Positions 42,056-44,024 of a stretch of DNA of 64,000 nucleotides are shown here, in pieces; the first letter of the stretch is position 1; each line of letters begins with the position of its first letter. The translations under genes and the position numbers were made by a program. The notes beneath the pieces are model-generated. The model ran no database searches, was not told the DNA's origin, and worked only from the letters and a program-made list of their open reading frames with translations. Source of the stretch: Dongia rigui (GTDB taxonomy: Bacteria > Pseudomonadota > Alphaproteobacteria > Dongiales > Dongiaceae); contig NZ_JAXCLX010000001.1 in NCBI RefSeq assembly GCF_034044635.1, forward strand, positions 1,054,001 to 1,118,000, in the 5' to 3' direction.

Positions 42056-42400
42056 ATGACAGATTCCCCCACGGCGGCGCGCCTTGCCCGCTTCAAGATC
42101 GGCGACATCGTCAAACACCGCGTCTATCCGTTTCGGGGCGTGATCTTCGATGTCGACCCGGTCTTTGCCAACACCGAGGAATGGCTGCAATCCATTCCGG
42201 CCGAGATCCGGCCGCGCCGCGACCAGCCCTTCTATCACCTCCTCGCCGAGAACGCGGAGGCGACCTATGTCGCCTATGTCTCTGAGCAGAACCTGCTGCC
42301 AGACGACAGCGGCAAGCCCTGCAGGCATCCGATGATCCGCGACTTGTTCTTCGGGCCGGAAGCCGGCGCCTATCACCGCAAGGAAACGCGGCTCAACTGA
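42056..42400 (+). CDS. hspQ: Heat shock protein HspQ
   Basis: 114 residues from the ATG at 42056. It contains the YccV/HspQ fold with ARFKIGDIVKHRVYPFRGV and FDVDPVFANTEEW at the N-terminus, and QPFYHLLAENAEATYVAYV and SEQNLLPD later. In E. coli it is a hemimethylated-DNA-binding, Lon-substrate-enhancing heat-shock protein (about 105 residues). It lies 32 bases after the response regulator and may share its transcript. Confidence 0.94.
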   Translation: MTDSPTAARLARFKIGDIVKHRVYPFRGVIFDVDPVFANTEEWLQSIPAEIRPRRDQPFYHLLAENAEATYVAYVSEQNLLPDDSGKPCRHPMIRDLFFGPEAGAYHRKETRLN

Positions 42401-42418: not shown

Positions 42419-42447
42419 TTGACGTTGGAACAAGAATGGAACATAAA
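42419..42447 (+). promoter_or_regulatory. SOS promoter: LexA box within -35/-10 spacer
   Basis: The -35 TTGACG (42419-42424) and -10-like CATAAA (42442-42447) are separated by 17 bases. Inside and touching the spacer lies GAAC-N7-GAAC (42428-42442), the reverse complement of the alphaproteobacterial LexA consensus GTTC-N7-GTTC, with both half sites exact. LexA bound here would block RNA polymerase, giving DNA-damage induction. The transcript would start near 42454 and serve the 28-codon gene at 42480. Confidence 0.8.
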
Positions 42448-42479
42448 GGGTCCATAGACGATACAACGGGAGCAGGATC

Positions 42480-42566
42480 ATGGCCTACGGCCTCAAGAAT
42501 GCCATCGAAGCGATCGCTTTTTCCGCCCTCATGATGTTGATTCTGGCACTGCCCAGCTTGGCTTGA
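42480..42566 (+). CDS. SOS-controlled small membrane peptide, 28 residues
   Basis: ATG at 42480 and TGA at 42564-42566. The ribosome site GGGAGCAGG lies about 4-12 bases upstream. The peptide begins MAYGLKNAIEA and then runs hydrophobic to the end (IAFSALMMLILALPSLA), enough for one membrane helix; the N-terminus has one lysine and should face the cytoplasm. It sits 33 bases downstream of a perfect LexA box in a strong promoter context. Size and control match SidA, the 29-residue SOS-induced division inhibitor of Caulobacter, but I cannot show sequence homology. Too short to be found by ordinary gene calling. Confidence 0.7.
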   Translation: MAYGLKNAIEAIAFSALMMLILALPSLA

Positions 42567-42728
42567 GGCGGCGCTTCGGCGCTTGGCCGGGGCGATTAAT
42601 ATCTATTTTTGACAATGCCTTAGGTTGATTTCAGCTTTCTGCGGACCCATTGGGGGCGACAGAATCGCGGGGCTTTCGTTATCTTGGCGCCCAGAGCGCC
42701 ATAGAATGAACAAGGCCCCGCTGCTGTG

Positions 42729-44024
42729 ATGGATCTGACGACGCATTGGAGCGGCCTTGCCGTTCTCTTCATCTTCGCCGCCGCCTACTTCCTCGTGATC
42801 TGCGAGGAAGTGATCGAGATGCGCAAATCGAAGCCCGTCCTGGTCGCGGCGGGCCTCATTTGGGCGCTGGTCGCGATCGGCTACGACGCCGCCGGGGCAG
42901 CGGAGGCGGCGCATGTCGCGGTTAACCAGATCATCCTCGAATATGGCGAACTGCTGCTCTTCCTGCTGGTCGCCATCACCTATGTGAACACGCTGGAGGA
43001 ACGGCGCGTCTTTGATGTGCTGAGGGCCAGGCTCGTGGCGCTGGGCCTTGGCTACCGCGCGCTCTTTTGGCTGACCGGGGCCATCGCCTTTCCCCTCTCG
43101 GCCGTGCTCGACAACCTCACCACCGCTCTGGTGATGGGGGCGGTGGTGCTGGCTGTGGGGGCTGGCTCCCGTGCCTTCATCGCCCTGGGCTGCATCAACA
43201 TCGTCGTGGCGGCCAATGCCGGCGGCGCCTTTTCGCCCTTCGGCGATATCACCACATTGATGGTGTGGCAGGCGGGGAAGCTCGGCTTCTGGGATTTCTT
43301 CGATCTGTTCCTGCCCTCGCTCGTCAACTGGCTGGTGCCGGCGGCGCTGATGCATTTTGCCCTGCCGCCGGGCAAGCCCGCGCCGCGGCAGGAACGGGTG
43401 CGACCGAAGCCCGGGTCCATCGGCGTCATCCTGCTCTTTGCCGCCACCATCGCCACCGCCGTCGCCTTCAAGAACTTCCTGCATTTGCCGCCCGCCATCG
43501 GCATGATGCTGGGGCTCGGTTACTTGCAGATCTGGGCCTATTACCTCAACCGCCTAGGCAAGCGCCGCGACAATTCGGACATGCTGCTTGATTCCTTCAA
43601 GGAGATTCAGCGGGTGGAGTTTGACACCCTGCTGTTCTTCTTCGGCATCATCTTCGCGGTGGGCGGGCTTGGCGCCATGGGCTATCTCGCCGTCACATCG
43701 AAGATCCTCTATGCGGGCCTGGGGCCCACGACGGCCAATATCGTCATCGGCGCCCTCTCTGCCATCGTCGACAACATCCCGCTGATGTTCGCGGTCCTCA
43801 AGATGGACCCCGCCATGACCAACGGGCAATGGCTGCTGGTGACGCTGACCTGTGGTGTCGGCGGCTCGATCCTCTCCATAGGGTCAGCGGCCGGCGTCGC
43901 CCTGATGGGCCAGGCGCGCGGCAGCTATACCTTCTTTGCCCATCTCAAATGGAGCTGGGCGGTGGCGGCCGGCTATGGCGCTTCGATCCTGGTTCATCGT
44001 TTCGTCAACGCCGCGCTTTTCTGA
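42729..44024 (+). CDS. nhaD: NhaD-type Na+/H+ antiporter
   Basis: 431 residues from the ATG at 42729; a GTG directly before it at 42726 would add one residue. About twelve membrane helices of the ion transporter superfamily. Diagnostic NhaD segments are SAVLDNLTTALVMGA, NAGGAFSPFGDITTLMVW and SAIVDNIPLMFAVL, each with membrane acidic residues and paired DN motifs. Expected to expel sodium or lithium in exchange for protons. The intergenic region upstream (162 bases) contains TTGACA at 42608-42613 and a TGGCGC/GCGCCA hairpin, neither clearly assigned. nhaA follows 8 bases downstream. Confidence 0.92.
   Translation: MDLTTHWSGLAVLFIFAAAYFLVICEEVIEMRKSKPVLVAAGLIWALVAIGYDAAGAAEAAHVAVNQIILEYGELLLFLLVAITYVNTLEERRVFDVLRARLVALGLGYRALFWLTGAIAFPLSAVLDNLTTALVMGAVVLAVGAGSRAFIALGCINIVVAANAGGAFSPFGDITTLMVWQAGKLGFWDFFDLFLPSLVNWLVPAALMHFALPPGKPAPRQERVRPKPGSIGVILLFAATIATAVAFKNFLHLPPAIGMMLGLGYLQIWAYYLNRLGKRRDNSDMLLDSFKEIQRVEFDTLLFFFGIIFAVGGLGAMGYLAVTSKILYAGLGPTTANIVIGALSAIVDNIPLMFAVLKMDPAMTNGQWLLVTLTCGVGGSILSIGSAAGVALMGQARGSYTFFAHLKWSWAVAAGYGASILVHRFVNAALF

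Follow-up and report, generated by a model that had tools for sequence, protein, structure and literature searches.

Is the 28-codon reading frame that follows a LexA-type box between hspQ and nhaD of Dongia rigui a gene of its own, and what would its product do in a cell with damaged DNA? Within the window, the whole 64,000-nucleotide stretch of DNA that was analysed, the perfect GAAC-N7-GAAC box, the ribosome site and the 28-codon frame were all read directly in the sequence (Table 1), in agreement with the initial annotation. The distance between box and frame, previously given as 33 bases, was 37 bases from the box to the ATG. The locus had also been credited with a good promoter carrying the box in its spacer; this held for TTGACG and the perfect box, but the -10 element was weak (4 of 6 consensus bases) and a strict promoter scan called no promoter at the peptide locus. 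A PF08755 match was obtained at the hspQ position, and one such match was present in each of the 17 family genomes. We read the locus as a stand-alone SOS gene whose peptide, by analogy with SidA of Caulobacter, would be induced by the SOS response and inhibit division, a reading to which we assign a probability of about 0.66.

Table 1. Features of the peptide locus and its flanks (feature, position in the window, strand, remark).
LexA box GAACAAGAATGGAAC	42428-42442	+	sole GAAC-N7-GAAC in the 64-kb window
-35 element TTGACG	42419-42424	+	TTGAC-N15-GAAC kept in 12/12 carriers
-10-like CATAAA	42442-42447	+	17-base spacer; overlaps the end of the box; putative, from position only
Shine-Dalgarno GGGAG	42468-42472	+	7 bases before ATG; purine-rich site kept in orthologues
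28-codon gene, peptide MAYGLKNAIEAIAFSALMMLILALPSLA	42480..42566	+	ATG at 42480, TGA ends at 42566; one C-terminal hydrophobic helix
hspQ (YccV-like)	42056..42400	+	upstream neighbour and synteny marker; ORF and PF08755 match
nhaD	42726..44024	+	downstream neighbour, outside the unit; ORF

The box by itself carried no evidential weight. By chance alone, 64 kb should contain 1.29 copies of GAACN7GAAC, and the D. rigui genome held 97 copies compared with 148 copies of a reversed control pattern, showing that the motif was not enriched; because its frequency was at the chance level in both the window and the genome, the box alone was dropped as evidence. The same figures would fit a chance open frame lying beside a chance box. 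However, the box, the -35 element, their spacing and the peptide were kept jointly in 12 genomes from Dongia and two other genera, indicating that the arrangement is not due to chance; this explanation is already refuted and deserves practically no credence.

When related genomes were searched for the box, its spacing and the peptide, as the initial annotation had proposed, all three were found to be kept in 12 of the 17 Dongiaceae genomes, with 7 of 7 Dongia genomes among them. The search of relatives recovered the peptide in five other Dongia genomes, including D. mobilis CGMCC 1.7660; the box and TTGAC were kept in all five and the N7 spacers varied. Inspection of the 17 family genomes revealed diverged copies downstream of hspQ in genus g4 (MSAYAAHVLEGAAFAAIMLLIAISPSLLAS and two similar sequences) and in genus g7 (MIRLARHILEGAAFGTLMAVILAGQHLLQ). 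The copy in genome G016 was MATYLGHLLEGAVFGGIMLLIAVAPGLLAG, and that in the Dongia genome G005, MSGKGLTGIMNQLGEGAAFGALIALILWAPHLL, was located about 3 kb from hspQ, directly before nhaA. A profile made from the peptides of eleven of the 12 carriers retrieved all 12 with E-values of 4.6e-8 or better, and the profile search detected no copy in five family genomes (G007, G008, G010, G011 and G014). Profile searches of approximately 390 alphaproteobacterial genomes gave no convincing match outside Dongiaceae, and those weak matches that were inspected there were rejected as chance frames. The 28-codon frame is coding and under purifying selection; pS was 0.27-0.60 versus a pN of 0.06-0.29 within Dongia, and 0.41-0.67 versus 0.09-0.23 within g4. 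No match for the peptide was found in Pfam and NCBIfam. The family is apparently undescribed and is of a known kind.

The promoter region was conserved in a manner that points to LexA. Each of the 12 carriers had TTGAC followed, at a distance of exactly 15 bases, by a GAAC half-site, and the box was perfect in 11 of them, with one mismatch (GAAT) in G005. The partner half-site lay upstream of this invariant GAAC in Dongia and g7 and downstream of the same GAAC in g4, still 7 bases apart (GAACN7GAAC). Unless selection acted to keep LexA control, it would be difficult to account for a box that was rebuilt in this way while the promoter stayed fixed; the case illustrates clearly how a LexA box can turn over via half-site switching. 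As a positive control, the lexA promoters of the 16 orthologues found, that of D. rigui included, all carried TTGAC and GAAC[CT]AAA[AC]TAGAAC; the fragmented draft G002, where lexA was not found, is left out of this count. The LexA domain was confirmed. The imuA promoters of D. rigui and three relatives also bore the box, imuA being named from its recognisable sequence. The GAACN7GAAC (GTTCN7GTTC) consensus matches the LexA motif of Caulobacter (PMC12700426). The locus showed these features of an alphaproteobacterial-type LexA regulon: a promoter-overlapping box, a boxed lexA in the same genome and a box kept in orthologous promoters. The earlier proposal of SOS control was thus strengthened by a box and promoter kept in 12 of 12 carriers, by the box shared with the lexA promoters and by a partner half-site that moved yet was kept. 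Taken together, the comparison strongly suggests that the membrane micropeptide gene is controlled by LexA. LexA represses its targets, and RecA-driven cleavage of LexA frees transcription; on this established biology the gene would be induced by damage, and the peptide is very probably made only after DNA damage. The family lexA box was nearly fixed, and its distance to lexA was approximately 166 bases in most Dongia versus 80-116 bases elsewhere (L089, L263-L278).

Since the peptide gene is flanked in the window by hspQ and nhaD, the frame could be a leader peptide or a cis-acting upstream frame controlling hspQ or nhaD. However, 160 bases without sequence conservation precede nhaD, and it is the amino acids that are conserved, not codons alone. 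The downstream neighbour also varied among genera (either nhaD or nhaA, or else a small frame unrelated to them), making a leader function very unlikely. Homologues of nhaD were present in just some of the peptide carriers, and therefore the peptide is not tied to nhaD. The independence from hspQ and nhaD that had been claimed at the outset was upheld by the changing downstream gene and by the one Dongia copy lying some 3 kb from hspQ. In g4, the peptide was immediately followed by another small frame, about 69 residues long (MFLIDRP...LRADLAPR.LFG..GD.VRAALVARPP...; L149 of G009, with copies in G013 and G015); this frame was absent from Dongia and is a candidate second SOS cistron.

The peptide consists of a short polar N-terminus, the invariant Glu10 and then about 17 uncharged hydrophobic residues, predicted from hydropathy to form a single membrane helix that the charged residues K6 and E10 precede. 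Three residues (E10, F14 and I21) were invariant across carriers, and the invariant or near-invariant E10, A13, F14, L17 and I21 clustered on a single face of the helix (permutation p 0.02), suggesting a specific membrane partner over unspecific membrane damage. The conserved face probably docks on such a partner.

Unspecific damage would be the role of a TisB-type peptide, which after SOS induction would depolarise the membrane, slow growth and promote persistence instead of acting as a division checkpoint. TisB of Escherichia coli is an SOS-induced, LexA-controlled hydrophobic peptide of about 29 residues that forms pores; in genes of its type the leader is long and structured, and an antisense antitoxin RNA is encoded nearby. 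The Dongia peptide falls in the same size range, is regulated in the same way and has one hydrophobic helix. By contrast, neither a structured leader nor an antisense RNA was seen at the Dongia locus. The predicted leader has only about 25 bases; moreover, there was no Rfam match of note at the locus, the scan found no opposite-strand promoter and the sequence after the stop codon was not conserved, each of these three being a weak test. The failure to see an antitoxin RNA, a long leader or a conserved 3' region lowers the likelihood of a TisB-like toxin, although these are weak negatives, and K6 and E10 before the helix together with the conserved face suit a specific partner. We regard this alternative as unlikely.

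The combination of a LexA box and a membrane peptide was not confined to Dongiaceae. The composite pattern TTGACN4GAACN7GAACAT occurred at 14 sites in 387 alphaproteobacterial genomes versus 1 site for the control pattern. These comprised the 4 Dongia copies, 7 other membrane peptides of 33-35 residues, 1 lexA and 2 further sites, so that 11 of 14 preceded a membrane peptide of 28-35 residues. All but one of the seven non-Dongia peptides were found in a lolD-[box, peptide]-dnaE arrangement, in which lolD was read from sequence and dnaE was matched in five of six, the sixth contig ending before dnaE. When the region upstream of dnaE was surveyed in 90 genomes, forward boxes were present in 14, and 13 of these were then followed by a hydrophobic frame of 24-50 codons. 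Genomes of eight families carried these hydrophobic frames, and the composite-promoter search added a ninth family; in most of the dnaE-side peptides the helix was directly preceded by an acidic residue. The LexA-boxed peptides between lolD and dnaE (32-47 residues) have promoter geometry, size and the acidic pre-helix residue in common with the Dongiaceae peptide; they differ in locus and in the helix end, which is mostly Trp-rich versus LP[ST]LA in Dongiaceae. Profile similarity controlled by shuffling was significant for G133 and some f41 members (p values of 0.0015-0.008 for the former and one of the latter), with most others not significant, and G390, a LexA-boxed peptide not linked to dnaE, reached p 0.004 against shuffled controls. 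As similarity was significant in few lineages only, the dnaE-side peptides were treated as look-alikes with possible common descent, and the sequence links to the Dongiaceae peptide are only suggestive. In the D. rigui genome, the 600 bases upstream of the dnaE match contained no box, and the Dongia peptide adjoins hspQ, not dnaE.

Such a class-wide pairing bears on the function of the peptide. Many bacterial membrane micropeptides modulate other membrane proteins, and the Dongia product could likewise be an SOS-induced modulator of a protein outside the divisome (for example FtsH or another protease, a transporter, a sensor of envelope stress or the respiratory chain); its neighbours in Dongia are transporters, and the conserved helical face says only that some partner exists. 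However, the neighbours change between genera, so that neither nhaD nor nhaA is an obligate partner, and the recurrent pairing of peptide and LexA box across the class points to a damage-specific role. We regard a modulator of this kind as improbable.

A SidA-like role is favoured on account of the anatomy and the class-wide occurrence of LexA-boxed membrane peptides. SidA is an SOS-induced peptide of 29 amino acids in the inner membrane of Caulobacter that binds FtsW (PMC4211646), and sidA is CCNA_02004 (PMC10769358). SidA of Caulobacter crescentus and the Dongia peptide are both LexA-controlled and alphaproteobacterial, of 29 versus 28 residues, and each has a single inner-membrane helix (PMC4211646, PMC10769358), that of the Dongia peptide being predicted from hydropathy. 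The Dongia gene differs in being placed beside hspQ, an FtsW/FtsN target like that of SidA would be putative for its peptide, and the two are likened by size, anatomy and regulation, not by alignment. DidA of Caulobacter is also a damage-induced small inner-membrane division inhibitor (PMC4211646), but it is SOS-independent (DriD-activated) and binds FtsN. YneA of Bacillus and SosA of Staphylococcus are SOS-induced membrane division inhibitors, YneA targeting FtsW (PMC13396833, PMC6851548); they are larger, have domains beyond the helix and belong to Gram-positive hosts, and sequence kinship with them is not expected. Division inhibition by the Dongia peptide is plausible on these analogies, and the partner would most likely be the late divisome (FtsW/FtsI/FtsN).

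Under the SidA-like reading, LexA bound to 42428-42442 would block the TTGAC promoter. DNA damage would activate RecA and lead to self-cleavage of LexA, after which a short mRNA with a leader of roughly 25 bases would be produced. The 28-residue peptide would then form a single helix inserted in the inner membrane, and its face of Glu10, Ala13, Phe14, Leu17 and Ile21 would dock on the membrane partner, the late divisome being favoured. Synthesis of the septum would halt until repair was finished, as with SidA in Caulobacter. Membrane insertion, the divisome target and the arrest of division are here modelled on the known inhibitors.

The gene sidA presumably adjoins dnaE in Caulobacter. The Caulobacter dnaE is CC1926 (PMC1839093). 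SidA, the dnaE-side peptides and the hspQ-side peptides may conceivably form a single family of LexA-controlled membrane micropeptides in Alphaproteobacteria, one that is ancient, evolves fast, has largely escaped annotation and serves as an SOS division checkpoint throughout the class; the copy in Dongiaceae would have been relocated to hspQ and its box rebuilt around one fixed half-site. We put this forward tentatively and with some doubt. A conserved LexA-boxed micropeptide in Dongiaceae, together with the similar ones beside dnaE in nine further families, would allow the checkpoint that halts division in the SOS response to be located and tested in most Alphaproteobacteria. Promoter geometry combined with synteny can detect genes that are too short for annotation.

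Several other LexA-type boxes were observed. Five genomes carried a reverse-orientation GTTCN7GTTC 56-83 bases before the dnaE match without a peptide (L188, L210, L211, L215 and L236), which may reflect chance or regulation of dnaE. Outside the window, the D. rigui genome contained a dispersed repeat (L004, L023, L025, L082, L083, L084, L085 and L091, at about 1501-1515) in which GTTCN7GTTC abuts the TTGAC of a strong promoter. The repeat extended over about 390 bases in the closest copies (62-91% identity), and the box was kept although the copies had diverged. No Rfam match was found for the repeat, which is possibly a multi-copy LexA-controlled RNA or a mobile element. In addition, two similar proteins of 470-490 residues without known function were encoded downstream of AT-rich GTTCN7GTTC boxes (L081 on C2 and L093 on C1).
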